Assembly: GCA_037042915.1 (NCBI GenBank)
Contig: CM073202.1
Span: forward strand, 1,922,001-1,986,000
Source of the DNA: Auricularia sp. M13
Lineage: Eukaryota > Basidiomycota > Agaricomycetes > Auriculariales > Auriculariaceae
Length of the DNA stretch: 64,000 nucleotides
Direction: 5' to 3'
Shown one piece after another: positions 11,233 through 40,577 of the stretch (position 1 is its first letter; every line of letters begins with the position of its first letter). A program made the position numbers and the translations under genes. The notes below the pieces were generated by a model, which ran no database searches, was not told the origin of the DNA, and was given only the letters and a program-made list of their open reading frames with translations.

Positions 11233-14200
11233 ATGTCACCCCGGACTACTCGCAGCAGCCGGAGCGCGATCGTTCAGCAAGCTCCAGCGCAGGAGACGAT
11301 TAAGAGGGCCTGCAAGCGTTGCTCTGCCGCACAAGGCACGAAGGTCAGAGCCCATGGAAGAGCCCGTTGCCCGGTACGATGCTCGCGGTACGCGCTGCCC
11401 ACAAATGCTGAGCAATTTCTTAGCTCGCGGCCGATGAAGCCGCGAACCATCTTGAGCGGAAGCAGGAGTACATGGAGGCTACGCGTGCTCAAAGAGACAA
11501 GCTCGTTGCCAGCCGTCGCACGAAGGTCGACGAGCAGGCTTTGGATTCTGACGCCGAGCACGAGGGCGACACAACGCTCGACGAGAGCGAGAACAATGGC
11601 GATGTGACCCGAAGCACTGCCGCTACCTCCCTCATGGACGACGAGCAAGAGCAAGACGTTGCTCCCGCCTACGACGACGATGAGCACGAGCAAGAGCAAG
11701 ACGTCGAGGACGAGCAAGAGCAAGATGTCGCTCGCGCCTACGACGACGAGGGCTTGCAGGACAACGGCGCGAGCGTCAGCTACGCCGGCAGGAGGCTCAA
11801 CGACGACACCTTCTTCAATAGCGAGGATGGGCTGTATGCCACGCCGCTGATGCATGAGCCGCAGAACTTCGACGACGCCGATGCCGTTGCCTCTCAAATC
11901 GACGAGTTCACCGAGCAGGCCGCGTGCGAGTCTCAAATTGAGGACGCGAAGGGGTCACGAGAAAACCATGCGCACGTGCGCGGGGTCCGTGCGCAGCAGT
12001 AATCCTGCCCTAGAAGACTGTTCAGACATCCTAGAATGATTGTTGAGGGTCATTCCAGTAGCTTACACCTAGCCGCACATGTCTGTGTGCACAAACCTAT
12101 CAAACCTTAAAAACTGGCCAAGATATTGTCAAATTACTGGTTTCAAGTTCCGCGCGCATGTTGTGCACGTTGCGCACGGATGCGCACAGACTGCGCACGG
12201 ATTTTTCACACTGCGCACAGATTGTAAATCTGTGTGCACGGATGAAGGAGGACTGCGCACGGATTGTGATTTTGTGCGCACGACATTTTGGACCCTGCGC
12301 ACGGATGTTAGAATCATGCGCACGGACATGGTAGACATGCGCACGGACATGCTGACACTGCGCACGGATTTTGTGTGTTGCGCACGGATTCTGTATAAAG
12401 CACAACTGCATTAGTTTTTTTACTTTGGCACATCTAGGCGACTTGATTGAACTCATTGAAGTTCATTAACAAACACCAACAATTTCCATAAGTCTTGTTG
12501 CAATTGACTGCTCAAGTACAGTTTGTTAATACACTACAGAATGTAGTAAACACAGGTAGAAGTGCCACAAAATGGATGTCTATGACTGGATTTGAACTGA
12601 GGGTGTTTCGAATCCATTAAGAATATGTACATGTTAACCACTAGTCCAAACTACAGAAAATACATCCTGGTAACTTGAGTATAATATGGTGTGGGCGTGC
12701 AAGTCCCTCTGTGAGATGGCATGGTGAGGATGAGGTTGGAACCCATCTAATCAACAAGAAGATCTGAAGGGACGGGATGGTGGTGTGATGCAGGAGAGTG
12801 AGCACCTCTGTGGTACAGAGGTGGTGCAGCAGACACAGCAAACTTTGGCTTGTTCCAGGTCCACTCCACGGCCCAAAACACGTGTCTCGTCTCTCCTTGA
12901 CCCAGACAATTCATTTGAGATTTTTTGACCAAACTGGGATCAGGGCTTAGAATTTATTAGTAGATGAGTGAATCATGGTTACTCAGGCTGCAAAGGATAT
13001 TACTCCTGAATTCATGAACCAAAATAACATAAGTTCTAACCTTAGCAAGCTTAATCTAACCTAACATAACATAACTGTATGAGGGTAACATCTTTTGAGT
13101 TATGAGTACCTACTTAGAGCCTCTTCAGGAAATCAGCTTAGAACACAAACCGACATGCTGGCTGAATATTTCTGATCCTGTACTAACGTGGAAGTGAAAT
13201 TTCGAACAAATCATGTAGCACAGTAGTTTATCTAAAATAGTTGACACTAGAGATGTGCACCTCTATCAATGCACACAGTGCCATGAATACATCTATGATA
13301 TACATCTTCAAAGGATTTTTGATTTTTTTCACACTGCGCACGGATTTTTGTACTTTGCGCACGGATTGTGAAAACTGCGCACGGATATCAGGAGCCTGCG
13401 CACGGATTGTGAAAATTGCGCACGAAAGCACATTTCATGCGCACGGATGACCAGGACCCTGCGCACGGATTTTGAAAAGTGCGCACGGACATTTGGACCC
13501 TGCGCACGAAAGTTAAACTCATGCGCACGAAAGTTCTAACCCTGCGCACGGAAGTTCTGCGCACGGATATTCTTGCGCACGGATGCGCACGGACCCTGCG
13601 CACGGTTTTCTAGGGGTCCGGACGCGAAGAACCAGGGCGACGACAATCAGACCTCCGATGAGGACGAGGACAACAACCCATACACCGAAGCCAAAATCAA
13701 GAAGATGGCTATTCACGAGCTCAGGTCGGCACTCGCGTACATCTGGAACTCCAGCAAGGACCGCAAGTCCAAGATGAACGAGGCCGTGCAGCATATTGTA
13801 CAGGTGCGGAAGGACGTCGACACGAGCTCGTGCACGATACCAAACCTGTGGAAAGGCACGAGTACGGCGGGGGACTTCATTACAAGTAAAGTCCTTGCGC
13901 ATATACCGTGCTTCATTAACGTGCCGCTCGCAGGTATAAGTCATGCCTCGGACACCACTCGCCAGAGTCAGGTCCTCACACAGTGGGCGAAGAACGCCAC
14001 GAGCACCAACAGGTGGCACGACACCCTCCCCAACTTCGGCAGTGTTTGCCTGAAGGTGAGCCCTGTCCGTGCCGATGTGCTGTCTGCTGCTGACGTGCGC
14101 ACCTCGCAGATGGAGAAGCTCGCCGACTGGTGCCCGTCCTGGCCGTTCATCGCCTTCCTGCCCAAGGACAGCAGCGGGCAAATGTACACTTGGGTCTCTG

Positions 14201-14475
14201 AGTCGATCGCGGATGAGAAACCCGAGCTGGCGGAGGCCATGCGCAGCACGATGTTCGAGCAGCTGTACAACCTCCGCAAGCAGCGGGCTGCTGAGGACAT
14301 GAAAGCCCGCGCTGATCTGACGGCGAGGGCTGAGGCCGCTCAGGCGTGGATGATGGAACAGCAAGCAAAGTTCGACACGATGGAGGAGCAGCTGGAGCAG
14401 GCAGAGCAGGCTCGCAAGGAGCTCGAGGAGGCCGCGCAGTACTGGCGGGAGAAGGCGCAGAAGCGTTCGAAGTAG
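11233..14475 (+). CDS. Unknown acidic, coiled-coil protein split by element E1
   Basis: Exon 1 is 11233-11373. Intron 11374-11423 is 50 nt (GTACGA donor, CTGAG branch, TTCTTAG acceptor) and keeps phase. Exon 2 runs from 11424 to 11956, where E1 is inserted, and resumes at 13613-14475. The first part has a Cys pair (ACKRCS) followed by a basic segment, then an acidic low-complexity region with DEQEQDV repeats. The distal part continues with acidic DEDEDNN, a globular region (AIHELRSALAYIWNSSKDR, later DWCPSWPFIAFLPKDSS), and an Ala/Glu/Gln-rich segment (about 14270-14470) typical of a coiled coil, ending KAQKRSK. I do not recognise the family. Removing E1 with one GGGGTC leaves the two halves one base out of frame, while splicing from GT in the left target copy to the terminal AG would restore frame. 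Confidence 0.55.
12171..12388 (+). repeat. E1 left array: twelve TGCGCACGGA-like motifs at 21-bp phase
   Basis: Motifs begin at 12171, 12181, 12192, 12212, 12233, 12254, 12275, 12296, 12317, 12338, 12359 and 12379. From 12192 on, every step is 20 or 21 bp. The 10-bp motif is conserved, while the 10-11 bp between motifs differ in sequence but keep their length. This is the pattern of repeated protein-binding sites on one face of the helix (two turns). Confidence 0.88.
12582..12655 (-). tRNA. Degenerate tRNA-like sequence (SINE-like head or pseudo-tRNA)
   Basis: On the minus strand an A box (TGGACTAGTGG, 12648-12638) is followed about 50 nt later by a B box (GTTCAAATCC, 12597-12588). Between them lies a loop-like TTCTTAA that would give a CTT (Lys) anticodon. 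Stem pairing is poor in the anticodon and T arms, so this is not a working tRNA. It may be a tRNA-derived pol III promoter inside E1. Confidence 0.35.
13335..13606 (+). repeat. E1 right array: fifteen TGCGCACGGA-like motifs
   Basis: Motifs begin at 13335, 13356, 13376, 13397, 13417, 13438, 13460, 13480, 13501, 13522 and 13543 (steps 20-22 bp). Four more tightly packed ones follow at 13558, 13574, 13584 and 13597, up to the right end. They read in the same direction as the left array, so the two arrays are direct, not inverted, relative to each other. Confidence 0.88.
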
Positions 14476-15591: not shown

Positions 15592-15851
15592 GGTTATGAG
15601 CCCTGCGCTCGCCTGAGACCACTACACTTGGTTCTGCCTCGCGATACCGCACTAGCGCCACCTCTGCACGGACCTCACACGTCCATCTGTCTTTTCAGTT
15701 CTACGCCTACCCAGTGCACGCGCGCCCGCTACGTTACGTTGCTCGTCGCTCACCGCGCTCAACCGGCATCAACCAAAGTGCTGCATTATCCGTCCTTTGT
15801 TCTGTCCGTGCCACCCGCTGCCCCCGCACCGTGTCCGCACCGTCCCTCGCA

Positions 15852-17118
15852 ATGTCTGAAGTCGATAACGCGCCCAAACGCCTGCCTGCCCTCACCAAAA
15901 CCAACTACGATAAATGGAAGCCGGTGATGCTAGCAACGCTCAGAAGTCGCGGCCTACGCTGGACCATCGACCCGACCGCCGTCAAGCCCAGCCCAGCCGA
16001 TCCCAACAAAATCACTGCGGCTGAAAGGCGCGAGGCGAAAGAATGGGATTCGGACCGCCAGAAGGCCGCCGGCAACATCTACATGGCCGTTCACGAAGAC
16101 ATCCGCAAAGACATCGACAGCGACCATGAGAAGGGCGACCCAGCTGCCATGTGGGCGACTCTCGCGAAACGCGGTGCGCAGAAGAAGCCTAGCGATCGTT
16201 TCAGCGCGCTCAGCAACATCATCGCGCTTCAGCAGGACAACGAGGAGAATCTCCTTGCATACCACGCGCGCTGCAAGAGCGCCGTCGCTGAGTGGTGCGC
16301 GCTCCTTCCGACCAAGTACACCATTGCCGAGATGAAGGAGGAGCTCGGGTGCTGGTGCACCATTCGCGGTCTGCTCGCCGAGAACGAGTCCTTGGCTTCC
16401 AACGTCATGCACACCATCGAGATCAGCGGCAAGGACATGAATATGGAAACGCTGCGTACCACCTTCGCCAACGAGAACTCGCACCGGAACGGCCGTCAGC
16501 ATCCTTCCACCCTCGCGATGCGCACCGCCACGTCTGCTCCCGTCACCTCGCCGTCGACTCCTGCAACCTCGCTCGTGTTGGAAGAGGATGCGCTCCAGGT
16601 TTTCGCTGCCAGTGCCGGTCACAAGACTTGCTGGATTTGCGGCAGCCCCGACCATCTCATTCCCGACTGCCCGAAGAGGGACTCGATCCGCGAGAAGGCT
16701 TCGAACGCACGCCGCGAACGCAACAACAAGAAGAACAAGAAGAAGAAGGACGACTCCAAGGACGACTCCAAGTCGGGGTCGACGTCAAACTCGGGCGCCG
16801 CCAACACCAATGCCGCCTCCGCTGCTCCCGCTTCTTCCTCTGCTGCTGCTCTCGCCGCTACTGTTCGGTCTCTTAATGCAAGTGCTGACTACCGTCTTCC
16901 CCTCTCTGCTCTGTGCGCTTCTGGTTCAAAACCGCGCGCTGACTGGAACACGGACACAGGCTGCACTGCACACATGACTCCTCACCGCTCGTACTTCCGC
17001 TCATACTTGCCGCACCAACAACCGATACGCCTCGCCGATGACACCTGCATTTATTCGGAAGGCTTGGGTTCAGTCGAGTTCCGGCCGCTGGTAGACGGGC
17101 AGGAGAGTGCTATGATTG
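15852..17118 (+). other. Copia gag and protease region
   Basis: Begins at an ATG at 15852. A gag domain of the UBN2/Copia type is followed by a CCHC zinc knuckle (CWICGSPDHLIPDC, about 16630), a Lys-rich stretch and a retropepsin-like motif (DTGCTAHM, about 16955). Fossil element. The target repeat of the half-LINE B1 ends this block. Confidence 0.85.
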
Positions 17119-17133
17119 TCTTCCACGATGTCC

Positions 17134-18937
17134 CCCAGAGTGCCTGGTTGAGCCCTGGTGAGGTGCTGCCTCAGGAGGCCGCGCGTTCACCGATTTCAAA
17201 CTCCGCTCCGGATACTTCCGGACCCCCTCCTCCTGCCCCTGCACCACCACAGGCTCATTTCTCCTCCTCTGGCCTCGATACTTCGGCTCTGGGTGCCCCT
17301 AGGGGTGCCCTGGAGACTGAGCCAGTTGCTCCTGATCAGGACATGGACTCAGACTCTGAGGAGGACTATGATGGAGTTGACCTTGCTGCCTTTGCAGCTG
17401 ATTGGGCCTCTACACCCCTGACTCCCAGCCACCTCAGGAACTCTGTCAAGCTGGTCAATAACCTTCTGGGCATGCTAAAGGTGCTCCTTGATTACAGGGA
17501 GCGTGTTCCACAGGCTGCTTCCATCATCAAGGACTTCTGCCACTCTGTTGTGCTGTCCTCCACCACTAGGCTGCTTCTTGCTCAGCAGGAGGAGCTTGGG
17601 AAGCTCTCTGCTATGGTAGCCTCGCTTAAGGACGCCCCTGGAGGTGTGCCTGCTGCTGCAACTTCGTCTGCACCACCTGCTCCTGCTCGTCCTGCCAAGG
17701 ACTCCTATGCTGCTCGCGCTGCCAAGTCAGCTGCACCACCACCTGCTGTGCCCTGCGTGTCAGCCCCAGCTACTTCTCTTGCCCGCCACGACGCTCGCTG
17801 CCTGATCCTCATGGTCAAGCCCAGTACCGCTGTTCGCCTTGCAGTCAAGAACGCTGCTGCTGCCCGCTCTGCCATCAACACTGCCCTCACCGGCGTCTCC
17901 CCTCCTGCTACGCCTCATCCCAGGCTTGGGGTGAGTGGTGTTGGCCTGACTCGCTCAGGCAACGTTGTTGTCTTTGCGCTTCCAGGTCTCACTCTGCCGA
18001 CTTGGAGCCTCACGGCGCTCTCATCGCCTCTGCCTTCCTGCCCCAGGAGGCCACCTTTTCTGGTGCTGCTTGTGACAGCCTTTGGTTCAAGGCCGTTGTC
18101 TCTGATGTTGTGCCTCCTGACCTTGGCCAGCCCCTGCCGACATCGCAGGAGTTGTAGGCTGAGGTGGAGGAGTTTACTGCCCACCAGTTTGCCTGGGCTG
18201 CCCCTCCTATGTGGTTGGGCCCGCCTACTCGCATCATCCAGCAGGGCTCTGGCTCTGTGCTACTTTCCTTCACTCGTGAAGACGACTTGCAGTACGTCCT
18301 TCGCCATGGTGTCTTCCTCTTTGGCCATGCTATGCGTGTTCGTCACTTCCACGACTCTGGTCGTCCTCGCCCCTGCTCCAACTGCTGCAGTCTGGAGCAC
18401 ACTGCTCGTGCCTGCACCCAGGCCCCTCGCTGTGGTCTGTGTTCTCAGAGTCATTTGACTTCTGAGCATGGCTGCAGTGAGTGCGACTTCTTTGCCGACG
18501 TCCATGATGGTCTTGCACACTGTGCACACACTGTCTTGTGCTGCCCCCACTGTGCTGGGTCCCACGCGATGTGCGACTCAGCTTGCCGTGTCTGGACTCG
18601 CCGTGCTGGTGGTCCCAGGAGAACTACGAGGACATCTGGTGGTGGTCAGGCGGCCACTGCCATGGATGTGACTTGATTTGCTTTTCCCCCTGAGTGCGTG
18701 TTTTGTTTTATGGTCTCTATGCCCCTATACCCCCCTCCCTATGCTTGCTGTGAACCTCTTGTCGACCCCCTGAATTCACACCTGTGTGCACTTGATCCCT
18801 CTTCAACCCTGTTTAGACCTCCCCCCTGCTCGCCCCCTGTTCACCATTTGGATGTGTACTCTGTGCACTCCACAGCGTCTTGGCTCTGTATTTGTAGCCT
18901 GCTTACGCTGTCTAAAAATGAAGAATCTCTCTCTCCC
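17134..18937 (+). mobile_element. Half-LINE (LINE-B), copy B1, 5'-truncated
   Basis: Inserted in the Copia element with a 15-bp target repeat TCTTCCACGATGTCC (17119-17133 and 18938-18952). It carries the distal part of the LINE-B ORF1, including the RRM-like region and the Cys/His knuckles (CSNCCSLEHTARAC). It has at least one frame change and an early stop relative to copy B3. Its 3' end has the shared hairpin and a (TC)n tail. No ORF2 is present. Confidence 0.85.
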
Positions 18938-22145: not shown

Positions 22146-22184
<39 letters not shown>

Positions 22185-22698
22185 TCTTGAATTTTAGACA
22201 GCGTAAGCAGGCTACAAATACAGAGCCAAGACGCTGTGGTCTGTACAAAGTACATTCCAATGGGTCAACATGGGGCAGGCAAGGGGGGTCGTAACAGGGG
22301 TGTAGAGGGATCTAGTGCAAACTGGTGTGGATTCTGGGTGTAACAAAGTTGTGAGCGCAGTTTTAGGGCATGGGGGTATAGGGGCATAGGGGCATAGAAT
22401 AAATAAAAATATACAAACATACCATAACTTCATGCGCCTCATCAGCACATGAAGTGACCAGCTCGCCAATAAGCAAGCAGATGTTAGCAAGTAAGCAGCT
22501 GCATGTGGCCCTTTAGGGCCACTGTGGGTGTATCTCTTGAGACACTCAAGAAAAGTATCTTAGGGACTGATAGAGGGTAGAGGGCAGAGTCTGGATGGGT
22601 GGGGCTGTAGCCTACAGACAAAGGCGCACCGCAACATGGTCAAAGCCATGTGGAGCCACGGCGCAGCTCATGGTCCTCCCAACCCATTGTATGAATGG

Positions 22699-25600
22699 TT
22701 AAGGGTCCTGCGGCGGTGGCTCACCAGTTTTGGTGAACGCACCCGACGAGTGGATGAATTTGGCCAAGGCAGAGATGCCCTTGCGCGTGCTGAGTAGCGC
22801 ATGCGTCCCAAGCAAGTCAGGCTTGAAGGAGGCAAAGTGGTGATAGTGCTCGTCATGGCGCTCGCAATCGCGAAGGATATGATCGCGTGTCTGCAAGTGG
22901 TGTCCACAAGGGCAAGTCACATCTTCAGTGGGAACATGGCGCTGATAGTACTCGCCCATGAACGCATGTCCAAGGCGGCACTGCATGACCAGTCCATAAA
23001 GACGGCGAGGCAGCTCACCAAAGTGAGGTGGAGGGCGCCTCTTGGGTGGCCCATAGGCTGCCCTGGCATACAAACCCCGAGGAGGTGACTCTGCCCACTC
23101 CTCTATCCAAGTCTCCATGACACGCTCCTTGGCACATCTTTTGAGGTGGGACACAGTGGCCCATGAGGGACCTTGCATGCGAGCTGCCTCCTTGGCTAAC
23201 TCATCTGCACGCTCATTGCCCCTTATGCCAATATGGCTGGGGACCCAAGAGATGGTCACCTCATGAGACGCATCAGCAGCAAGGAAGTCACGAGCATGCT
23301 CGCAGAAAGAAATGGAAAACTGCTGGGCAGAAGCAGGACGCTCCTTGACAATGGCCTCAACAGCTGAAGAGTTGTCAGCAAAGAAGTGGAGGTGGGAGGC
23401 CGAGCCCATGGGCAAGTCCATGTAATGGGCAACATGGTCCATGGCAGCAGAGAGGGCATGCATCTCAGCATCATAGACCTCAGCCTGGGACCCCATAGGG
23501 ATGCGACCGCAAGACTGCTCCTGACCCTCCAGGTAGGTCACAAAAGCTGCACCAGTCCTGCGACCAGTTGGAGTGTCTAAAAGGGAACCATCAGTGTAGA
23601 TCAGCAGGTTTGCAGAGCTGAGTTCCAGCATCTGCACAAGTCTGACATGGGACTCTGCAGCATCAGCTTTGCTCACACCCTTTGGCACAGGCCTGAGGTG
23701 GATGCGACCTGGAAAAGCTGCAAGCAGAGAAATGGCCCATGGGGCAATGTGGAAGGGCGCAATGCGCTCATTGCCAGGTGAGGTGAGCTTGGCAAGGTAG
23801 CGAAGAGAGGAGCGAGTTTGACCACGCTTGTGCACCACTGGTGGCTTCTCCATTGGAGACTGGTGCCAGGCAGGGTGCAGCCGCTGCAAGACAGGACTAC
23901 AAGGCCCCAACTTGTGCAGGCGAGCAGCAGCAAGGTCATCGGCCTTGTCTAATACCAAATGTATAGGTGGAATAGCTGCCTCCAACTCCAGAGCATAAAT
24001 GGGCGAAGACTTGAAGACAGCACAGATCATGCGCAGACACAAGTTCTGCACACGCATGAGCTTCTCAGCTTGCCATGCCCTTTGCATCCACCACACTGGT
24101 GAAGCATAGAGGAGAATGGGGAGAATGCAGGAGATGTACAGCCTGCGCATGTGTCCCTGGTGGAGACCACACACAGTGTTGGCCAGCATGCGCAATCCCA
24201 TGGCTGCCTTGCGCGCCTTGGCACAGGCCTTATCCACATGTGCGCGATAGGTCAACTTGGGGTCAAAGAAGATACCCAGCCAGCGTACAACTGGGAGAGG
24301 GCGCAGGCGAGCAACCTGGCCCTGAGTATCAGTGTAGGCCATAGCCAAGTCATCATTGGCAGCAATGTCAGCAAAGGAGCCATCCTTGCGACGCCAGGTG
24401 TGGTGCATAAGCTCACACTTGTCTAGGTCAGGCTGAAGACCTGCCAGGTTGAACCACTCCCGAATAATGCAGAAGCAGAAGCGCAGCTCAGCAGTGTTCA
24501 GCTCGAGGCTGTCAGAGTGCACTGTGCATCTCCCATCATCCACATAGAGGAAGAGGGTGGGTGCCACAAATGTGGGATTGAGCAGGCGCATCTCTGCCTC
24601 CCGGGCAGCTCGCCTCTGCTGCATGAACTCAATGAGCACAGTGGAGTAGAATGCAGAGAGTATGCCAGAGACTGGAGAGCCCTGAGGCACTCCATTCTCA
24701 ACTGGCTTGCAGCTGCTGACTCTACCATCCAGGCAGATGGATGCCTCTCTGTCCTGCAAGAAGGATGCAACCCACTGCACAATGGGCAGAGGCACACGCT
24801 TCTCTCGCAAGACCAGCAGGAGACGCTGGTGGTTGACAAAGTCAAAGTAGCCCTTGATGTCAAAGGTCAGGGAACTAAGCGCTTTGCCTGAATGTGCTCC
24901 AGGACTTTTCCCAAGCAGACAAGCAAGGTAATCAGTCTGTAAGACCTTGGATTAGACCAATCAGTCTTGCCAGCTTTCTTGAGCACATATGCAATGGCTC
25001 ATCTCCAGCGGCGAGGGTGGTCGCCCCAAAGAGCACAGCGCGCAATGAGAAGATAGATCTCCTCCTGTGCCACATCCCAAGCCCAGCGCAACCCAGTGTA
25101 GGGAACTCCCTCATCACCAGGCGCTTTCTGGGGGTTAGGTCCAAAGATGCCTTCTCTCACCTCCTCCAGAGTGACCTCCCTGTAGGGAATGTCTTCTGGG
25201 TGTGGTGTGGTCAGGTCTGGCTCGTCCAGGCCCTCTATGTGAGGAGGGCGCTGGTACAAGGTCTTGCGCAGTGCATCACACTTCTCAGCATGAGTGCGCG
25301 CAAAGGTGCCATCTGGGCGACGAATGTCAGGAGAACGGTACCCCCGACGTCCCTGGGACCACTTGCGCATGTCCCAGATGTCATCCACAGTGGCATCCTC
25401 CACTACCTTGTTCCAGTAGTCACGCTTGGTGCGCTTTACCTGGCGACGATGGTAGTTGCGCTCCCTGGCTGCAGTTGCAGTCAGGACTGCATTGGAGCGG
25501 CGCATGCGCCTTGCAAAGTCCTGTGCAGCTCTCTCTGCATCTCGCATCTTCTGCAAGCTCTGGGTGAGTGCAGGAGTCCACCAGGGCTGAGAGTGCTTAG

Positions 25601-26160: not shown

Positions 26161-26224
26161 CGCGCAAGAGTGCGGCCAAGTCGCCAGTGTCAGGGGCAGG
26201 TGTGCTGGGCTTGTCACGAGTGCT

Positions 26225-27397: not shown

Positions 27398-27980
27398 CCT
27401 CGGACCGGGAGCTCTTCCGCGCTTTCAGTGACGCTGATCATGGTGGCAATCTGGACAACAGGCGCTCGACATCGGGTATGGTTGTGAACATGGGCTCCGG
27501 CGCTGTCAGCTGGCATAGCCGTCTCCAGCCTTTCGTCACCCTGTCTACCACGGAAGCCGAGTATGTTGCAGCGTGTGCAACCGGCCAGGAGATCCTCTGG
27601 ATGCGCAACTTGTTCGCGTGCTTCGGCTATGACGTTGCTGCTCCCTCGTCACTTGGCATTGACAACATGTCCACCGTCTCCGTCGCGCGCAATCCCGAAC
27701 ACCACGGCCGCATGAAACATCTGGACCTGCGTTATTACTGGCTTCGTCACGGAGTTGCTGAACGCCGCTCTATTTGCATCGTGCATGTGCCCACGGCGCA
27801 GATGCCTGCCGACATCATGACCAAACGTCTTGATCGCGTCAAAATGGAGTCTATGCGCTGCCTGCTTGGTCTCTCGAAGGACCCGCTCATGTTTCTCTAA
27901 TGGTTTCATTTCGTTTTATTTTTGATCCTACTATCTTTGATTTCTACTGCGTGTTTGCCCCGTACCAGGTCAGGGGGGTG
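27398..27980 (+). other. Copia RNase H region and 3' untranslated part
   Basis: Encodes typical Copia RNase H sequence (SGMVVNMGSGAVSW, TLSTTEAEYVAAC, HLDLRYYWLRH, MPADIMTKRL) ending at about 27900, then about 80 bp to the purine tract and the 3' LTR. Fossil element. Confidence 0.88.
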
Positions 27981-28146
27981 TGTTGATGTGTTATGACACG
28001 GTACGGACTATGCTACGGACTTAGATTGTACGCCCGGATTAGTTCCGCGCTATATAGTCTGGGTCCGCGGCAATGTGGGGCACTCTTTGCCCTTTTGTGC
28101 TCATCGTCGCGGACTCCAGGTCGTGGTCTCCCCTCGTGCGCTCACA
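27981..28146 (+). repeat. Copia 3' LTR
   Basis: 166 bp, near-identical to the 5' LTR, preceded by CAGGGGGGTG and followed by the target repeat CCGCC. Confidence 0.92.
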
Positions 28147-28253
28147 CCGCCTTCGCCCGCCACCCCGCCTTCCCCCTTCCCTCCTCCCTCCCTCCGCTCC
28201 GCCGGTGGCAACGCGTCAGTTGCCATCCAGAGGTCAGGTCGTTGGTGAGCGTG

Positions 28254-30133
28254 CTTCTGGACGCGCTCCTCGAGTTGCTGCACATGGCAGCGGCTCAGAT
28301 CGCGCCCCCTCGGTCAGAAATGACTGGGGTGTCGACTCAGTTCCTGGAGAGCCTCAATCGGCGCATAACTGGGGCAGTTCTGCCCCAGGTGAACTACAGG
28401 CAACCAAGTTGTCTTCTGCTGCAACAAAGTTGCCCTATGCTCGCCCTAGCACCTCAATCCCCCAAGGGGAGACTATGTCAGTCTGTGGTGACGAGGACAT
28501 GCAGTCTGTGCACTCAGTTCAGGACTGGAGGGCACAGAATGTGCCAGCCAACTTGGGCTGTCTGCCAGACGGCACACCACTTGAGGAGGCAGTCAATGAC
28601 ATCAGGTCTGACCTGCAGCACCTCATTGCACGTGCCACTGCAGTCAATGCGGCTGTCTGGAACCAGGAAGACCAGTACTGGCGCTGGGCGGACCTGTGGA
28701 CAGCAGAGCGTGTCACTGAGCTTGCCAGAGTCATGTGCTCTTCGGCAGCTGCAGGAGAAGCAGAGCAACACTTTGGGTACTTGTCCTGCCCACAGCCCAC
28801 ACTCCTTGACACCCTTGTCTCGGATATGGCTGAGGTCAAGCGCAACATTGCCTTCCTCACTGCCCAACAGGCCTCTGCGCCTTCAAGTGCCCAACAGCAG
28901 CAGCCTGCAGCAGCAGCTGCTGCCACAGCTGTTCCTGCAAAGGCAAGCGCACCTGGCCGCTCCTATGCGTCGCGTGCTGCTCAGCCAGCTGCCAAAGGCA
29001 CTGTGGTGCCGGCCCGTCCCAGTGCGGTGCCAAAGCCACCTCCTACCAATGGTCGTGCGCGCCACCACCCAGGTCGTCTCATCCTGAGCGTCCGTGCCAC
29101 ACCTGAGCTGACTGCTCATGTGCGCAACAATGCGAGCCGCTTGCGCGCTGCAGTGAACACTGCGCTTGCTCCTCACAAGAGCAAGTCGCCTGCCAAGCTC
29201 CCACTTCGTGTCACAAGCGTGGACACCACCGCCTCTGGCAACATTGTGGTGGTTGCGGCAGATGGACTGACTTCAGCAGATCTGGTTGAACATGGAGATG
29301 CAATTGCGTCTGCCATTGTGCCAGACTCTGGCTCATTCATCAAGGCGTCTCGCGATGAGCCTTGGCACCAAGTGCTAGTCAATGGTGTCTCGACTCGAGT
29401 TCATGACATTGAGGGACTGCCCACTGGGCAAGACCTCCTCTCAGACATTGTTGAGTTCAACACTCACAAGTTTGACTGGGCCACCATGCCACGCTGGCTG
29501 GGAAGTGCAGCAGACCTTGCTGGCAAGAGCTCAGGCTCTGTCATTTTGGCATTCCTGAGTGAGGCAGATGCTCGCTATGCAGTTGAGCATGCAGTCAGTG
29601 TCTTTGGACGCCTCTGCTCAGTTCGCTACTTTGAGGACATGCCTCGTCTGCGCACCTGTGACAGGTGTTGCAGCCTTGAACACACTGCTCGCATTTGCGA
29701 CAAGCCCATGCGCTGTGGAGTCTGCAGTGCCAGCACCCACACCACTGCCAACCACACTTGTGAGCAGATGGAGTGCGAGTTCTACAGCTCTGCACATGCA
29801 CCTGGAACTCACTGCGAGCACACTCAGCTCAAGTGCCCTCACTGTGGTGGGGCACATGTTGTGCGTGACTCCCAGTGCAAGATCTGGCAGCGGCGTCGCA
29901 TGGCGCTGCGCAAGCCCAGACATGATGCACCCAAGGCTGCAACTGCGCCCAAGCTGCGCCGCACCAAGAGCAGAGTTGCACTTGGCCCCAAGGCCAATGT
30001 GTCTGGCAGCAATGCAGTCCCTCTAGGCACTAACTCTCGCTCAGAGGCAGACGCCGCGGCCAAGGCTGCAGCAACTGCAAGCAGCACTCGTGACAAGCCC
30101 AGCACACCTGCGCCTGACACTGAGTCTGCATGA
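28254..30133 (+). pseudogene. LINE-A3 ORF1, 5'-truncated
   Basis: Distal ~625 codons of the ORF1 protein, open throughout. It has a Gln/Ala linker, an RRM-like region (GNIVVVAADGLTSADL) and three Cys/His knuckles (CDRCCSLEHTARIC, CGVCSASTHTTANHTC, CPHCGGAHVVRDSQC). ORF1 proteins of such LINEs bind element RNA. The frame happens to stay open upstream into flanking DNA. The stop TGA overlaps the ORF2 start (ATGA). Confidence 0.85.
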
Positions 30134-33100
30134 GAGACACCACTCGCCCCATTTGTGTCTCCATGACCAATGTGCGACGTCTCAATGACTCGCAGTCTGC
30201 ACTCTTCACTCCTGGCTCCCATTATGGGACCCCTCTTGCATCTGATATTTATCTGGTCACTGAACCGTGGTGGCACGTCGGTGATGAACCAGACGAGCCA
30301 CACTACTCTGTCAAGGAACCAGCAGGCATGTATCCCATCCTGCCAGTTCAAGTAGTGCCTGCTCTTGAAAGGCCACGTGTCTTTGCCTATGCGTCTGCGA
30401 CGCGGCGTGACTTTGAAGTATTTAACCGCTATGACCTTGCCCAAGATCTTGACTTTCTCATTCTTGAAATTCGTCAAGGGAGGCATCCAGCGTTCTTACT
30501 TGTCCTCATGTACAATGAGGACGCTCCTGAGGGGGCTGAGCGACTTGGCCGCACTTTTGCGCGCTTCAAGCTCATTGACCTTCCAGACATGCCAATTGCC
30601 ATTGCCATGGATGCAAATGAACACCACCATGTGTGGGACTTGTTTGCGGCCAACTCCTCTCGAGGGGGTGAGCAGATGCTGGAGTGGATGGAGGAGCATG
30701 GGTTCTCTGTGCTCAACAGTCCTGATGTGGCCACTTGGCGCAAGGACAACCACTCTCAGTCCTCTGTTCTGGACTTGGTGTGGCAGAACGACCAAATGGC
30801 TGCACTTGGTCTGCTGCAAGACTTTGCGGTGTCAGACGACGTCCATGACTTCTCTGACCATCACACTGTCTCCTGGGTCTTTGACCTGGGTGCTGAGGAT
30901 GTGGACCTTGGTTCTGGAGCCAGCTACAACTTCAAGCATGCAGACGAGGCCGAGTTCAAGGCAGAGTTTCGCTCTCGCCTGGATGGCCATGCAGCAGTGT
31001 TTGCAGAGCTGCAAAGTGCTCCCAAGCACACTCGCAACACTGAACTCCTAGAGCGCACTGCAGCAGCACTCCATGACGCTCTCAATGGTGCCACTCAGGC
31101 CAAGGTGCCCAAGAGGAGACCCTCTAAGCACTCTCAGCCCTGGTGGACTCCTGCACTCACCCAGAGCTTGCAGAAGATGCGAGATGCAGAGAGAGCTGCA
31201 CAGGACTTTGCAAGGCGCATGCGCCGCTCCAATGCAGTCCTGACTGCAACTGCAGCCAGGGAGCGCAACTACCATCGTCGCCAGGTAAAGCGCACCAAGC
31301 GTGACTACTGGAACAAGGTAGTGGAGGACGCCACTGTGGATGACATCTGGGACATGCGCAAGTGGTCCCAGGGACGTCGGGGGTACCGTTCTCCTGACAT
31401 TCGTCGCCCAGATGGCACCTTTGCGCGCACTCATGCTGAAAAGTGTGATGCACTGCGCGAGACCTTGTACCAGCGCCCTCCTCACATAGAGGGCCTGGAC
31501 GAGCCAGACCTGACCACACCACACCCAGAAGACATTCCCTACAGGGAGGTCACTCTGGAGGAGGTGAGAGAAGGCATCTTTGGACCTAACCCCCAGAAAG
31601 CGCCTGGTGATGAGGGAGTTCCCTACACTGGGTTGCGCTGGGCTTGGGATGTGGCACAGGAGGAGATCTATCTTCTCATTGCGCGCTGTGCTCTTTGGGG
31701 CTACCACCCTCGCCGCTGGAGACGAGCCATTGCATATGTGCTCAAGAAAGCTGGCAAGACTGATTGGTCTAATCCAAGGTCTTACAGGCTGATTACCTTG
31801 CTTGTCTGCTTGGGAAAAGTCTTGGAGCGCATTCAGGCAAAGCGCTTGACCTACATGGCATCTGCCATGGGTCTTGTGCACCCCAACCAGTTTGGGGCCA
31901 TGCCTGCCTCCTCCACTGTGGATGCTGCTCTGTGCTACACCCATGATGTGCAGACTGCTCGTGACAAGGGTTTGGTGACTAGTTCACTGACCTTTGACAT
32001 CAAGGGCTACTTTGACTTTGTCAACCACCAGCGTCTGCTGCTGGTCCTGCGAGAGAAGCGTGTGCCTCTGCCCATTGTGCAGTGGGTTGCATCCTTCTTG
32101 CAGGACAGAGAGGCATCCATCTGCCTGGATGGTAGAGTCAGCAGCTGTAAGCCAGTTGAGAATGGAGTGCCTCAGGGCTCTCCAGTCTCTGGCATACTCT
32201 CTGCATTCTACTCCACTGGGCTCATTGAGTTCATGCAGCAGAGGCGAGCTGCCCGCGAGGCAGAGATGCGCCAGCTCAATCCCACATTTGTGGCACCCAC
32301 CCTCTTCCTCTATGTGGATGATGGGAGATGCACTGTGCACTCTGACAGCCTGGAGCTGAACACTGCTGAGCTGCGCTTCTGCTTCTGCATTATTCGGGAG
32401 TGGTTCAACCTGGCAGGTCTTCAGCCTGACCTAGACAAGTGTGAGCTTATGCACCACACCTGGCGTCGCAAGGATGGCTCCTTTGCTGACATTGCTGCCA
32501 ATGATGACTTGGCCATGGCCTACACTGATGCTCAGGGCCAGGTTGCTCGCCTGCGCCCTCTCCCAGTTGTACGCTGGCTGGGTATCTTCTTTGACCCAAA
32601 GTTGACCTATCGCGCACATGTGGATAAGGCCGGTGCCAAGGCGCGCAAGGCAGCCATGGGATTGCGCATGCTGGCCAACACTGTGCGTGGTCTCCACCAG
32701 GGACACATGCGCAGGCTGTACATCTCCTGCATTCTCCCCATCCTCCTCTATGCTTCACCAGTGTGGTGGATGCAAAGGGCATGGCAAGCTGAGAAGCTCA
32801 TGCGTGTGCAGAACTTGTGTCTGCGCATGATCTGTGCTGTCTTCAAGACTTCGCCCATTTATGCTCTTGAGTTGGAGGCAGCTATTCCTCCTATACACTT
32901 GGTATTAGACAAGGCCGATGACCTTGCTGCTGCTCGCCTGCACAAGTTGGGGCCTTGCAGTCCTGTCTTGCAGCGCCTGCACCCTGCCTGGCACCAGTCT
33001 CTAATGGAGAAGCCACCAGTGGTGCACAAGCGTGGTCAAACTCGCTCCTCACTTCGCTACCTTGCCAAGCTCACCTCACCTGGCAATGAGCGCATTGAGC

Positions 33101-34158
33101 CCTTCCACATTGCCCCATGGGCCATTTCTCTGCTTGCAGCTTTTCCAGGTCGCATCCACCTGAGGCCTGTGCCAAAGGGTGTGAGCAAAGCTGATGCTGC
33201 AGAGTCCCATGTCAGACTTGTGCAGATGCTGGAACTCAGTTCTGCAAACCTGCTGATCTACACTGATGGTTCCCTTTTAGACACTCCAACTGGTCGCAGG
33301 ACTGGTGCAGCTTTTGTGACCTACCTGGAGGGTCAGGAGCAGTCTTGCGGTCGCATCCCTATGGGGTCCCAGGCTGAGGTCTATGATGCTGAGATGCATG
33401 CCCTCTCTGCTGCCATGGACCATGTTGCCCATTACATGGACTTGCCCATGGGCTCGGCCTCCCACCTCCACTTCTTTGCTGACAACTCTTCAGCTGTTGA
33501 GGCCATTGTCAAGGAGCGTCCTGCTTCTGCCCAGCAGTTTTCCATTTCTTTCTGCGAGCATGCTCGTGACTTCCTTGCTGCTGATGCGTCTCATGAGGTG
33601 ACCATCTCTTGGGTCCCCAGCCATATTGGCATAAGGGGCAATGAGCGTGCAGATGAGTTAGCCAAGGAGGCAGCTCGCATGCAAGGTCCCTCATGGGCCA
33701 CTGTGTCCCACCTCAAAAGATGTGCCAAGGAGCGTGTCATGGAGACTTGGATAGAGGAGTGGGCAGAGTCACCTCCTCGGGGTTTGTATGCCAGGGCAGC
33801 CTATGGGCCACCCAAGAGGCGCCCTCCACCTCACTTTGGTGAGCTGCCTCGCCGTCTTTATGGACTGGTCATGCAGTGCCGCCTTGGACATGCGTTCATG
33901 GGCGAGTACTATCAGCGCCATGTTCCCACTGAAGATGTGACTTGCCCTTGTGGACACCACTTGCAGACACGCGATCATATCCTTCGCGATTGCGAGCGCC
34001 ATGACGAGCACTATCACCACTTTGCCTCCTTCAAGCCTGACTTGCTTGGGACGCATGCGCTACTCAGCACGCGCAAGGGCATCTCTGCCTTGGCCAAATT
34101 CATCCACTCGTCGGGTGCGTTCACCAAAACTGGTGAGCCACCGCCGCAGGACCCTTAA
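30130..34158 (+). CDS. LINE-A ORF2: APE endonuclease, reverse transcriptase, RNase H (1,342 residues)
   Basis: Intact. Residues about 1-260 are an APE-type endonuclease (AMDANEHHHVW near 160, SDHHTVSW near 242) that nicks the target. The reverse transcriptase follows: motif A FDIKGYFDF (about 621), motif B NGVPQGSPVSG (about 680), catalytic YVDD (about 727). RNase H has IYTDGS (about 1043), AEMHAL, FADNSS and a HIGIRGNERADE block (about 1160). A C-terminal Cys/His finger (CPCGHH...RDHILRDCERH, about 1272) ends the protein. This order fits the Tad/I group of LINEs. The start ATG overlaps the ORF1 stop by ATGA, implying translation by termination-reinitiation. All catalytic residues I can check are present, so this is a plausible active source that could also drive the LINE-B half-elements. 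Confidence 0.95.
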   Translation: MRDTTRPICVSMTNVRRLNDSQSALFTPGSHYGTPLASDIYLVTEPWWHVGDEPDEPHYSVKEPAGMYPILPVQVVPALERPRVFAYASATRRDFEVFNRYDLAQDLDFLILEIRQGRHPAFLLVLMYNEDAPEGAERLGRTFARFKLIDLPDMPIAIAMDANEHHHVWDLFAANSSRGGEQMLEWMEEHGFSVLNSPDVATWRKDNHSQSSVLDLVWQNDQMAALGLLQDFAVSDDVHDFSDHHTVSWVFDLGAEDVDLGSGASYNFKHADEAEFKAEFRSRLDGHAAVFAELQSAPKHTRNTELLERTAAALHDALNGATQAKVPKRRPSKHSQPWWTPALTQSLQKMRDAERAAQDFARRMRRSNAVLTATAARERNYHRRQVKRTKRDYWNKVVEDATVDDIWDMRKWSQGRRGYRSPDIRRPDGTFARTHAEKCDALRETLYQRPPHIEGLDEPDLTTPHPEDIPYREVTLEEVREGIFGPNPQKAPGDEGVPYTGLRWAWDVAQEEIYLLIARCALWGYHPRRWRRAIAYVLKKAGKTDWSNPRSYRLITLLVCLGKVLERIQAKRLTYMASAMGLVHPNQFGAMPASSTVDAALCYTHDVQTARDKGLVTSSLTFDIKGYFDFVNHQRLLLVLREKRVPLPIVQWVASFLQDREASICLDGRVSSCKPVENGVPQGSPVSGILSAFYSTGLIEFMQQRRAAREAEMRQLNPTFVAPTLFLYVDDGRCTVHSDSLELNTAELRFCFCIIREWFNLAGLQPDLDKCELMHHTWRRKDGSFADIAANDDLAMAYTDAQGQVARLRPLPVVRWLGIFFDPKLTYRAHVDKAGAKARKAAMGLRMLANTVRGLHQGHMRRLYISCILPILLYASPVWWMQRAWQAEKLMRVQNLCLRMICAVFKTSPIYALELEAAIPPIHLVLDKADDLAAARLHKLGPCSPVLQRLHPAWHQSLMEKPPVVHKRGQTRSSLRYLAKLTSPGNERIEPFHIAPWAISLLAAFPGRIHLRPVPKGVSKADAAESHVRLVQMLELSSANLLIYTDGSLLDTPTGRRTGAAFVTYLEGQEQSCGRIPMGSQAEVYDAEMHALSAAMDHVAHYMDLPMGSASHLHFFADNSSAVEAIVKERPASAQQFSISFCEHARDFLAADASHEVTISWVPSHIGIRGNERADELAKEAARMQGPSWATVSHLKRCAKERVMETWIEEWAESPPRGLYARAAYGPPKRRPPPHFGELPRRLYGLVMQCRLGHAFMGEYYQRHVPTEDVTCPCGHHLQTRDHILRDCERHDEHYHHFASFKPDLLGTHALLSTRKGISALAKFIHSSGAFTKTGEPPPQDP

Positions 34159-34708
34159 CCATTCATACAATGGGTTGGGAGGACCATGAGCTGCGCCGTG
34201 GCTCCACATGGCTTTGACCATGTTGCGGTGCGCCTTTGTCTGTAGGCTACAGCCCCACCCATCCAGACTCTGCCCTCTACCCTCTATCAGTCCCTAAGAT
34301 ACTTTTCTTGAGTGTCTCAAGAGATACACCCACAGTGGCCCTAAAGGGCCACATGCAGCTGCTTACTTGCTAACATCTGCTTGCTTATTGGCGAGCTGGT
34401 CACTTCATGTGCTGATGAGGCGCATGAAGTTATGGTATGTTTGTATATTTTTATTTATTCTATGCCCCTATGCCCCTATACCCCCATGCCCTAAAACTGC
34501 GCTCACAACTTTGTTACACCCAGAATCCACACCAGTTTGCACTAGATCCCTCTACACCCCTGTTACGACCCCCCTTGCCTGCCCCATGTTGACCCATTGG
34601 AATGTACTTTGTACAGACCACAGCGTCTTGGCTCTGTATTTGTAGCCTGCTTACGCTGTCTAAAATTCAAGAATTTCTCTCTCTCTCTCTCTCTCGTTGG
34701 TGAGCGTG

Positions 34709-36999: not shown

Positions 37000-37082
37000 A
37001 CCCCGCGTAGACACTTCTAATGTTCCCGTGTGTATGAAGAACGCTTTCCTACAATTAATCTGCTACATCTAGTGCACACCGC

Positions 37083-40000
37083 TTATGGGCGTTCTACCAC
37101 ACCGCTGTTGTACAGAAGATCCTTGAGCTGTTCCCGTCGTGCCTGCCCTGCCGCAAGTAGCTGGGGTTCGCCCACATCCGCATCATGCTGACCGGGATTG
37201 GCATTACGAAAGGCCTGCTCATGAGCATCACCTTCTGCTATGATTTCACAAAGAAAGTCGGGATCCTTGTTGCCGTTCTCAATCCGCATGATGAGGTTGT
37301 GCAGCACAAGGCAGCATCGGACCCACATAACTGCGAGCTCGTGAGCCTGCTTGTTGTTGATTTGCTGTCGCAGCTCCCGCAAGGAGCCAAAGCGGCCTTT
37401 TAGAAGTCCCATGGTGTGCTCAGACTTGACACGGACCTTCGAATACACATGTAAGATGCCTGACTATTCTTGAAACGGGTATAGCACTCACACGAGACAC
37501 CCAGAAATTATATGTTTTGTGCTCCGGGATGTTGGCGGCGGGTTTCTTGTACGGTGTGACGCACCAAGTTCTGGTTGGATATGCTGAGTCTGCCCAGACC
37601 CACTCTGAGTTGTTGAGCAGGGTGTTATGCTCGCGGTAGATGCGGCTATCCTCAAATGCTGTTGAGTCGTGCACGCTGCCTACGTGGCCAAGAACGTAGT
37701 CGATGATGAGACCTTTGGGAAGATTGATAATCTACGGAGGATGAGTATCCCTTCGCGCTGCTGAGAGCGACTAGCCTGAGCACTGAGAGCATAGCACGAC
37801 TTCCATGAATAGTAGGCCTCGCCATAGAATCCCGGCTTGTCAAGTAGCGGGATGAGTGTGCCGTCGACCATGCTGTAACCATCCCTCCACTCAGCACATG
37901 CTGTCTCTTCCACCCAGTCCTTTGCCTCCTCCTTCTCGTCTTCATTTGGCCAGTGGATTGCTTCGTCATGTAAGCTGAGGAGAGCAACCATAACGCGACG
38001 TGTGGCGTTGAGCACAGTTCCAGCTGAGACGCCAGCCCACTGGGCAATATCCTCCATTGAAGCAGAGTTTCCGTCGTGCCCAAAGCGATACATAACAATT
38101 GCAAACTGCTCGCGCACAGAGGTCTGCTGATGCTGTGATTCGTTGTGGAAGACCGGGTCGGTGTCAATATAAGACACCAGTGTATCAAAAGTGGTAGGAG
38201 AGCAGCGTAGGTTTCGGCGAAAGCGAGTATAGTCATCCGAATAGAAGTCTCCAAGAACGAGCGGAAGTTGCGAGTGTTTCGCAACGGGGTTGCCAGGCAC
38301 AAGCACACGATGTGCGAGGATCTCGAACAGCATGTCCTCGACAGCCCGCATTCCCACCATGTAGTTCTCCTCTGGATCTCCTGGCTGCAGGTGCAGTGGA
38401 TCATCTGACAAAGCCGCTGAGACTTTGTCTACGGTCATAGAGTCTGAGGATGACGAGTCCGAGGATGATGATGAAGAGAGAGATAGGTGGGTATCAACTG
38501 ACATATTACTGCTGCTGGAGGACAAGCTGGAAGAGCTGCTAGACGAGCTGGAGGACGAGGACGAAGATGACGACAACGAGGACCCCTAGAAAAACGTGCG
38601 CAGGGTGCGTGCGCACACGTGCGCAGAATTTTGCGTGCGTACAACTTGTGTGCGCAGTTTTCAAAATGCGTGCGCATGGTTTTCACTTGCGTGCGCAGGG
38701 TCCAAAACTCTGAACGCACGCTTTTCCTCATGCGTGCGCAGGTCATGGGTGTGCGTGCGCAGGTCAGAAGCATGCGTGCGCAAGTCTGAGGTTGCTAGTG
38801 TATTGTATTATTCTTGATGGATAACACGCATTCAAAGTCAGCGGTATACTAAAGCTTATCTTATATTCAGCATACACATTAGAAGCCGCAAGTGTAATGA
38901 ACTAGAAACCACGTTACTGCGAGGAAGTCATCAGCAGTGTGGATTACAGAGCTTGCAATGCATGTTAAAGTGATCAGTTGGAGATTACATTAGGCCCAAA
39001 GATTAATGCACACTAGATATCACAAGTGTAATGAATTAGAAGTTGTGTTACACTCGAAGGTTAATGCACACTTGAAGTTGCACATGTATTTGATTGCCAA
39101 TTAACTTTCATCCATTCTTCCATCCCACAACAAGATGACAGTAGCTGAAGCTTGGGATCAGTACCAAATCAGTATAAAGGTCCCAAGCAGCAGGTTGACC
39201 TGGACGTGTTTGTGTTGTCCATCCTAGAGGACTTGATGCTTGATCAGTCCTGTGACCTAGGCTTATCTGCTTTGTCACAATGGGGCCTTGATGCTGGTCA
39301 CCACCAGCATCACTGGAATCCCTATGTGCATGGTCCAACGGAGGATAGACATGATGAAGCAGGATGGGACATAGAGTCTGAGGAATATAATTTGGCTATC
39401 ACAGTAAGTCATTCATTTTTTGCTTTGCAGAAGTTGATGCAAACACAACAATGCACGACGTGGACCAGACTATAGGGAAGATTCACCCAAAAGGCCACCC
39501 ACCCCGAAATGTCAAGTGCAGAAATGCGAGAAACACAAAGTTGAAAAAGGTTAAGTTTTTGGTGTCATCAAATTTAGCAAACTTACTGACCTGCTTTTAC
39601 AGACAATTCTTCGCAGAAATGGAAATGGAGGAGGAACAGGAACAGGCGGCAGCAAAGCACCAGAAAAGCAAAACTGTGGCAGTTGCAACAAAGCCTGTCA
39701 AAAAACCAAAGACACGTAAAAGAAAGTAGCACTAGGTCTGATGTATATTCATGTTGAGATGCACTAATGTAATAACCACATGGGCTTTGCTTCATTGGAG
39801 ATTAGTTAAGGGCTGGTCAACCAACTATAACTTTGGTAAACCAGACCTGTCTGTCAGAATGTAATGTTCTTGATAACGAACAAGACGCGTGAACTCAGAA
39901 CATGTGATCCTTGTCCATTAATTGCAGACTCATTTATGAGGGGTGCATGTAGGCTTAAGAAGAGCTTGTGTACATTTCTTTAACAGCGTGCGCAAAGTCC

Positions 40001-40577
40001 AAGTGAGCGTGCGCAACAATTACGACTGCGTGCGCATGTTCCAACAGTGCGTGCGCAAGGTTCCAACTTGCGTGCGCAGAGCGTGAGCATCTTTGCGCAC
40101 GCATTTCAATAGCGTGCGCATCTTGCAAACTTGCGTGCGCATACTTGCAACATGCGTGCGCAGTGCGTGCGTGCGCAGGCCACGTTAGTTTTTGCGCACG
40201 CGCGCACGTGCGCACACAAGTTGAAATGTGTATATCAACAATATCTCTGCGGATATTTAAGGTTTGATGACCGTTGTTGGATAATCACATGCAATGGTAT
40301 CATAGCTACCACAATCACCTTTAACGATGACAATATCTTATCTAAATGGGCTTCTATGGTTGAATTAATGTTGCGCACGCACCTTGCGCACGTGCGCACG
40401 TTTTTCTCATGACCCCGACAACGATGAGCTTGATTCAGCTGTGCCGTCGTGAAGGTCCTGATCGGCGACCATCCTGGCCTCCTGCTCAGCCTGCTCGGCC
40501 ACAAACTGCTCCTGAAGCAGTCTGGCTTCCGCAATCAATGTCCGTATAGCATTTTGACGCAGAGAATAGGCAGGCAT
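37083..40577 (-). CDS. Harbinger DDE transposase, split by element E2
   Basis: DDE_Tnp_4-type transposase that cuts and pastes the element. The proposed start is the ATG at 40577 (MPAYSLRQNAIRTLIAEARL). The N-terminal helix-rich part runs to a poly-Ser tract, where E2 sits at 38587-40410. Removing E2 with one GACCCC rejoins the tract in frame. A helix-turn-helix-like segment (IAQWAGVSAGTVLNATRRV) follows. The catalytic triad is D in SMVDGTLIPLL, D in WADSAYP and E in KSEHTMGLLKGRF, all present. Inferred introns are 37775-37732 (a GC-AG intron, 44 nt) and 37491-37437 (GTGAGT, 55 nt), both keeping phase. The C-terminus is NSGVVERP. Apart from E2 the gene looks whole. Confidence 0.85.
38595..38783 (+). 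repeat. E2 left array of CGTGCGCA motifs, 21-bp phase
   Basis: Motif starts are at 38595, 38608, 38618, 38634, 38649, 38669, 38690, 38733, 38754 and 38775, with a degenerate unit near 38711. Away from the very end the steps are 20-21 bp (or twice that). Intervening bases vary in sequence but not length. Confidence 0.85.
39152..39729 (+). other. Possible small spliced gene or captured gene fragment inside E2
   Basis: A reading frame from about 39152 (GSVPNQYKGPKQQVDLDVF ... HHQHHWNPYVHG) is followed by a well-formed intron at 39550-39602 (GTTAAG donor, TACTGAC branch, TTTTACAG acceptor). After the intron a short end can be read either as a Lys-rich tail (PKTRKRK) or as CGSCNKAC. I do not recognise it. 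It may be a host gene piece carried by E2 or the remnant of its own protein. Confidence 0.3.
39987..40178 (+). repeat. E2 right array of CGTGCGCA motifs, 21-bp phase
   Basis: Motif starts are at 39987, 40008, 40029, 40050 and 40071 (exact 21-bp steps), then a degenerate unit at 40082, then 40113, 40134 and 40155 (21-bp steps), and overlapping units to 40178. Same direction as the left array. The extreme right end (about 40372-40400) has further GTGCGCA units. Confidence 0.87.

Follow-up and report, generated by a model that had tools for sequence, protein, structure and literature searches.

Two probable non-autonomous transposons of Auricularia sp. M13 carry arrays of a CpG-bearing motif at two-turn spacing near both ends

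In a 64,000-nucleotide stretch of the genome of Auricularia sp. M13 (assembly GCA_037042915.1, contig CM073202.1, positions 1,922,001 to 1,986,000; hereafter the window), two elements, E1 and E2, combine short inverted ends, target-site duplications of 9–10 base pairs (bp), host reading frames that are open again once rejoined, unrelated interiors, and arrays of the CpG motif CGTGCGCA spaced at two helical turns. E1 and E2 are probably non-autonomous cut-and-paste transposons of one superfamily, most likely Mutator-like, whose arrays would bind a protein made in trans. All positions are those of the window, and E1 was oriented so that its left end, GGACCCCTAGAAAA, matches the left end of E2. 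The two elements and their insertion sites are as follows.

11952–13619, minus strand: element E1, 1668 bp, delimited by its ends, TGCGCA cores and an abutting 10-bp duplication
11942–11951: E1 target-site duplication GGACGCGAAG, copy one, 10/10 identical to 13620–13629
13620–13629: E1 target-site duplication GGACGCGAAG, copy two
11424–14475, plus strand: host of E1, a reading frame without assigned function, broken after an acidic stretch
38580–40415, plus strand: element E2, 1836 bp, with inverted ends and a core 17 bp from each end
38571–38579: E2 target-site duplication CGACAACGA, copy one, 9/9 identical to 40416–40424
40416–40424: E2 target-site duplication CGACAACGA, copy two
37083–40655, minus strand: host of E2, a gene with a DDE_Tnp_4 segment, broken in its Ser-rich N-terminal part

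The marks of cut-and-paste transposition, namely terminal inverted repeats, a target-site duplication and a restorable empty site, are found in both elements. The inverted repeats are imperfect and share the pattern GG..C...AGAAAA: both elements begin with GGACCCCTAGAAAA once E1 is turned to match E2, and this end agrees with the right end at 10/14 bases in E1 (GGGTCACGAGAAAA) and at 9/14 bases in E2 (GGGTCATGAGAAAA), where the two ends are then identical through the first motif. In E1 as in E2, each end has a TGCGCA core at a distance of exactly 17 bp. The duplications are perfect and stand directly at the boundaries (10 bp in E1, 9 bp in E2); they back ends at 11952–13619 and 38580–40415, which lie 5–7 bp outside those proposed in the initial annotation. 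As a control, both boundaries were moved by at most 40 bases, and repeats of at least 8 bp then appeared at 11/6560 boundary pairs in E1 and 8/6560 in E2, with a maximum of 9 bp, and 5 and 2 of these, respectively, were the real duplication seen shifted. A short direct repeat, GACCCC/GGGGTC, was rejected as the duplication, being present at both ends of both elements with the longer duplications outside it. With the flanks joined through one duplication copy, the E1 site reads ...QIEDAK|NQGDD... in a frame open over 600 bases, and the E2 site reads through a Ser run, open from about 77 codons upstream. Since the frames are open across both rejoined sites, E1 and E2 are precise and probably recent insertions.

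Each element carries one array near either end, and beyond the right array a terminal block.

13335–13603, minus strand: E1 left array, 15 GTGCGCA motifs
12171–12385, minus strand: E1 right array, 11 intact GTGCGCA motifs
11952–12151, minus strand: E1 right terminal block, which lacks intact motifs for about 155 bp and then has terminal motifs
38596–38782, plus strand: E2 left array, with 9 GTGCGCA motifs intact and two units decayed (GTGCGTA, GAACGCA; placed by eye)
39988–40214, plus strand: E2 right array, 9 TGCGCA cores spaced at 21 bp without deviation, one of them reversed where it stands, followed by irregular motifs
40220–40415, plus strand: E2 right terminal block, the shared stretch TTTAAGGTTTGAT and terminal motifs

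Counted on both strands, with GTGCGCAC scored twice, E1 has 30 copies of GTGCGCA and E2 has 27, compared with dinucleotide-shuffle means of 0.44 (maximum 3) and 0.88 (maximum 5) over 300 shuffles. Forward motifs number 15 and 11 in the left and right arrays of E1, and 9 and 10 in those of E2. Cores whose flanks fit only the reverse motif are few. E1 has 1/28, lying 38 bp inside the right end, and E2 has 4/24, of which two belong to the right array and the others come within 40 bp of the right end. The initial annotation had described motif arrays near both ends of both elements, all pointing the same way, and these counts bear out both parts of that description.

The spacing within the arrays is regular to an extent that chance placement does not approach. 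Adjacent forward motifs are 20–22 bp apart at 27/41 gaps, whereas random placement gave a mean of 3.24 and a maximum of 11 in 2000 trials. For the palindromic core TGCGCA the corresponding figures are 18/27 gaps in E1 and 13/23 in E2, and the rest of the window, with 44 cores outside the elements, has 0/43. The mean period of the phased runs, whose register positions include decayed or reversed units, is 20.80 bp in the E1 left array (11 of its 15 motifs, the other four following endward at gaps of 15, 16, 10 and 13), 20.78 bp in the E1 right array (10 positions, one of them GTGCACA), and 21.00 and 21.00 bp in the arrays of E2. The proposed 20–21 bp spacing describes the phased majority and not the 14/41 gaps that fall outside 20–22 bp, three of which (42, 42 and 43) correspond to one skipped unit.

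That spacing had also been read as selection for helical phase. Protein binding is the likely reason for a 21-bp spacing, and this part of the proposal stands. A period scan from 9 to 40 found its best fit at 10.45–10.5 bp in every array, which is mostly the 21-bp spacing seen at half its length. Of ten irregular gaps picked by hand, in which a gap common to both elements counts once, only three come close to a whole number of 10.5-bp turns, and helical phase is not borne out as a rule for every motif. Selection may act on helical phase itself; a protein footprint of 21 bp would be plausible too.

Comparison of the two elements shows which parts have been retained. In the left arrays, 11 motif starts agree within 1 bp over 180 bp, the irregular first ones included, and in register the cores are identical at 74/77 positions on the left and 61/63 on the right. 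The spacers of the right arrays score 0.352 in register versus 0.335 when permuted, with 2010/5000 permutations as high, and position-by-position homology was undetected among these 8 spacers. Homology is also evident in the approximately 200 bp at the right end, where 133 identities stand against 61 mismatches and 8 gap positions. The interiors are unrelated: among the blastn matches listed, all touch arrays or ends. Common ends around differing interiors agree with the initial description of E1 and E2 as related non-autonomous elements. The motif itself has changed at base −2, which is C in 22/27 forward motifs of E1 (TCCGTGCGCA) and G in 16/20 of E2 (TGCGTGCGCA). As the left units have stayed in place through this switch, a change of the binding protein would explain it more easily than wholesale replacement of the units.

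Base composition provides a further line of evidence. Outside intact motifs, the observed/expected ratio (o/e) of CpG is 0.31 in E1 (19 vs 60.5 expected) and 0.44 in E2 (31 vs 71.2 expected); it is 0.27 (10 CpGs) and 0.35 (18) in the interiors, where TpG and CpA reach 1.38–1.53, 0.27 in the spacers, and 0.16 in the E1 right block (1 CpG). Four stretches flanking E1 and E2 have CpG o/e of 0.79, 0.94, 1.08 and 1.36, and two stretches resembling long interspersed nuclear elements (LINEs), at 30130–34158 and 55342–57180, have 0.43 and 0.45, the second being called LINE-like by similarity to other repeat copies rather than by domain search. Intact motifs hold 54/73 of the CpGs in E1 and 47/78 in E2 on 13% and 11% of the bases. 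What the CpG evidence adds independently is that the cores at register positions have been retained. As both insertions appear to be recent, most of the CpG loss probably took place earlier, with the motifs being kept.

Short inverted ends with a motif inside them, arrays behind and unrelated interiors make up the anatomy of elements mobilized in trans. We propose that an autonomous relative elsewhere in the genome would make a protein, either the transposase or a separate accessory protein, which would occupy neighbouring motifs with one copy for every two helical turns and would thereby align many copies on one face of the DNA. The bound copies could gather both ends into a transposition complex, and perhaps shield the ends from silencing. 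Motif and protein may co-evolve, which would explain the change at base −2.

Several observations weigh against this explanation. It is based on only two copies; a further left end (3 mismatches allowed) or a further TTTAAGGTTTGAT (2 allowed) was not found within the window. Pfam, applied to the two reading frames in the E2 interior (108 and 112 amino acids), gave no match above cut-off and one below, and revealed no transposase or binding protein. The arrays are parallel rather than inverted, which is at odds with a simple model of a symmetrically acting transposase, and the E1 core 17 bp from the right end is also flanked as a forward motif. The left-end motifs depart from the 21-bp rule, the first four gaps being 13, 10, 16 and 15 in both elements. 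The left spacers keep homology between E1 and E2 (0.53 vs 0.38 permuted, 225/5000 as high, for 6 spacers of at least 8 bases), and one consecutive spacer pair recurs between the left and right arrays of E1 (17/1000); from these two findings it follows that old duplication contributed to the arrays. As to composition, the share of CpGs lying in motifs is partly built in, since an intact motif contains CpG by definition. The E2 right block has a CpG o/e of 0.70, on 3 CpGs, a Copia-type stretch at 15714–18458 is only mildly low at 0.83, and among five isolated one-base motif variants only 2 are CpG-to-CpA, both of them in E1.

The same CpG pattern is open to another reading, in which the arrays serve mainly in anti-silencing, and an element-encoded protein bound to them would clear cytosine methylation or prevent it, the role that VANC has in VANDAL elements. 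This overlaps with binding for transposition and the two do not exclude each other; as the main role, we consider it possible but on the unlikely side. CpG-bearing motifs are kept within CpG-depleted elements, noncoding motif arrays vary among relatives (base −2 being C in E1 and G in E2) in the manner reported for VANDAL families (PMC5735166), and TET/JBP genes are described as carried by fungal DNA transposons (PMC12730594). The core standing 17 bp from both ends of both elements points instead to transposition, and neither a methylation-lowering gene in general nor a VANC-like gene in particular was recognized by Pfam in the two frames of the E2 interior.

With regard to superfamily, the duplications of 10 and 9 bp fall within the 8–11 bp given for Mutator-like elements (MULEs) (PMC6446971), and a barley MULE family, with ends GGG..CCC, is described as having duplications of 9 bp in 267/278 cases, 8 bp in 10 and 10 bp in 1 (PMC9168764). 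MULE membership is a lead based on one defining feature, the length of the duplication. The subterminal motif arrays also fit CACTA/CMCT elements, while the GG..CC ends and the duplications of 10 and 9 bp do not agree with the CA..TG (CACTA) ends and 2–5 bp duplications of that group. Assignment to hAT or to a Zisupton/Kyakuja-type group instead appears unlikely. Clustered subterminal motifs, a feature of hAT elements, speak for hAT, and in Hermes it is important that the first of them are exactly phased (PMC10368747). However, duplications of 8 bp are described for Zisupton and, usually, for hAT, and of 7 bp for hAT7/Kyakuja, with Kyakuja ends being CA..TG (PMC12730594). Those observed here are of 10 and 9 bp; assigning the last duplication base to the element would bring E2 to 8 but E1 to 9.

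Rather less probable is that the arrays are functionless plain 21-bp tandem repeats, i.e., a minisatellite within a transposon whose cores look kept as the repeats are young. Ordinary tandem duplication had been named from the outset as the case that would overturn a functional spacing, and recent duplication does not explain the spacing: within-array minus between-array spacer similarity is −0.008, with 1403/2000 label shuffles as high, and neighbouring spacers are no closer than others (adjacent means of 0.29–0.34 per array vs 0.32–0.37 within the array; 33 spacers in all). The 33 spacers are more alike than composition-shuffled ones (0.348 vs 0.275, standard deviation 0.007). This excess is mostly positional composition, as column-wise shuffling nearly abolishes the difference (3.940 vs 3.911, 27 spacers). 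Among the 27 spacers, 4 pairs score at least 9, compared with a shuffled mean of 0.37 and a maximum of 2 in 300 shuffles. The spacers, initially called unrelated, are so in lacking any array-specific likeness, and are not in their common positional composition and in these four pairs. A minisatellite would also account for the Tandem Repeats Finder calls on pieces of the arrays, at 69–90% matches, and for the consecutive pair recurring in E1, which is one of six pairings tested, the other five giving 84, 106, 207, 745 and 976 of 1000. The four high-scoring pairs and the recurring pair are traces of old duplication. On the other hand, the cores are kept although right-array spacers sit at chance level, and CpG depletion affects spacers and interiors and not the cores.

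It is very improbable that the elements are introners, spliced out between a GT close to one end and TTTTCTAG close to the other. Both do lie in open frames in like orientation relative to the gene, with GT and pyrimidine-TAG at their ends, and removal from GT to AG would by arithmetic leave 18 extra bases, in frame, in E1. Against this, the corresponding removal would leave 17 and a frame shift in E2, like orientation twice has a probability of one half, and the donors GTCACG and GTCATG differ widely from the common consensus. Known introners include some with duplications and added bases, but the 1.7–1.8 kb of E1 and E2 exceed the family medians of 30–654 in the same account (PMC9860276).

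Beyond transposition in trans, a bolder and doubtful possibility is that E1 and E2 represent a fungal transposon lineage in which helically phased, CpG-bearing operator arrays act as a methylation-sensitive landing strip for a self-encoded protein that polymerizes every two turns. If so, the protein would check that the element is unmethylated, or keep it so, and permit transposition only afterwards, and the motif letter proper to each subfamily would provide private recognition. Such a landing strip would be an independently evolved fungal counterpart of the plant TNPA/VANC systems with a defined filament geometry.

Several features inside and beside the elements deserve mention. In E1, 12575–12660 (minus strand) resembles by eye a transfer RNA (tRNA)-type internal promoter with A and B boxes; ARAGORN and Rfam reported no tRNA there, and at the gathering score nothing in the window. 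The only Rfam match to E1 at E ≤1, MIR4380, scores 25 bits vs a gathering score of 83 and was taken as chance arising from the repeated motif. The two frames of the E2 interior overlap at 39149–39729 (plus strand), have intron-like breaks and a Lys-rich C-terminus, and may be left over from a captured gene or from a gene of the autonomous element. Two pieces of the E1 host frame had no Pfam match. The E2 host gene, in which the DDE_Tnp_4 segment and upstream frames were joined by eye, is presumably HARBI1-like, and DDE_Tnp_4 (PF13359) matches 37083–37463 with an E-value of 2.2e-06 and 27.8 bits vs a cut-off of 24.8. Adjoining E2, a frame at 40949–41785 (plus strand) with Cys-Pro-Asp-Tyr ... 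Cys ... His looks by eye like a SWIM zinc finger, and Pfam gave no match to it.

Elsewhere, the retroelement content of the window, which is compatible with a fungal host, includes a Copia-type Pol_BBD domain, a match to gag that falls below the cut-off, and a reverse transcriptase accompanied by endonuclease and RNase H. Nested and inverted copies of a reverse-transcriptase/RNase H/endonuclease element occupy 22162–34695 and 42006–63538, the longest pairs being mostly 96–99% alike; they carry (GGGCATAG)n or (CTATGCCC)n tracts and include the stretch at 30130–34158 with its CpG o/e of 0.43. Near-perfect inverted repeats lie at 1343–2061 (arms of 328 nt, 99%, 63 nt apart) and 9379–9902 (arms of 216 nt, 99%, 92 nt apart). 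They could form long hairpins and are possibly foldback elements or similar to miniature inverted-repeat transposable elements.

A wider pattern scan for three CGTGCGCA units at 20–21 bp returned 4 viral and 99 prokaryotic stretches. These 103 loci were rejected as relatives, most looking like short tandem repeats with near-identical spacers (about 110 bases each, judged by eye), and the E1/E2 end patterns had 0 matches in viral contigs. In bacterial metagenome-assembled genomes (Tannerella/Tannerellaceae, Prevotellaceae and a Treponema), arrays of 20–22 bp are built around (A/T/C)CGTGCGCAC (L009, L024, L030, L035, L056, L062, L082, L091, L098, L101 and others). Their spacers are much alike, with the look of ordinary tandem repeats; one core in unrelated bacteria is odd.

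No described fungal element of the E1/E2 design was recognized in the open PMC literature, a scope that leaves Repbase outside. Fungal KDZ, Plavaka, IS3EU and hAT7 are likewise DNA transposons, some of them linked to methylation through TET/JBP genes, and differ from E1 and E2 in their duplications of 2–8 bp and their end motifs; the word "subterminal" is absent from the main text of that account (PMC12730594). The subterminal repeats of CACTA elements (En/Spm, soybean Tgm) are described as cis-determinants of excision and transposition bound by TNPA-like proteins, with a short motif repeated many times at either end, in an asymmetric arrangement that diverges between subfamilies, much as in E1 and E2 (PMC2613891). 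In contrast, E1 and E2 are without CACTA ends, their duplications are of 9–10 bp vs 3, and their motifs are nearly unidirectional and 21-bp phased, whereas those of soybean are direct and inverted and capable of forming stem-loops (PMC2613891). The VANC-bound VANDAL MULEs of Arabidopsis share a short motif repeated in noncoding parts and differing between related families, and co-evolution of the motif with its binding protein has been proposed (PMC5735166). Unlike E1 and E2, VANDALs have inverted repeats that are absent or short and degenerate (PMC6446971) and arrays described as tandem repeats (PMC5735166). In Hermes, a hAT element, a short motif is present 17 times in one end and 14 times in the other, and BED domains bind several of the left-end copies, the first of which need to be exactly phased; its copies crowd the tips asymmetrically (PMC10368747), and hAT duplications are usually 8 bp (PMC12730594). 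In the accounts cited, the subterminal motifs of soybean CACTA, VANDAL and Hermes are described as tandem, stem-loop or asymmetric, and not as a fixed two-turn register. A register kept amid scrambled spacers and CpG loss offers a clean, testable system for the assembly of transposon-end complexes, and bears on the joint change of binding protein and motif and on CpG-sensitive control in fungal elements. The array design is known in outline from plant CACTA and VANDAL elements and insect hAT; its strict spacing and preserved CpG sites are unusual.

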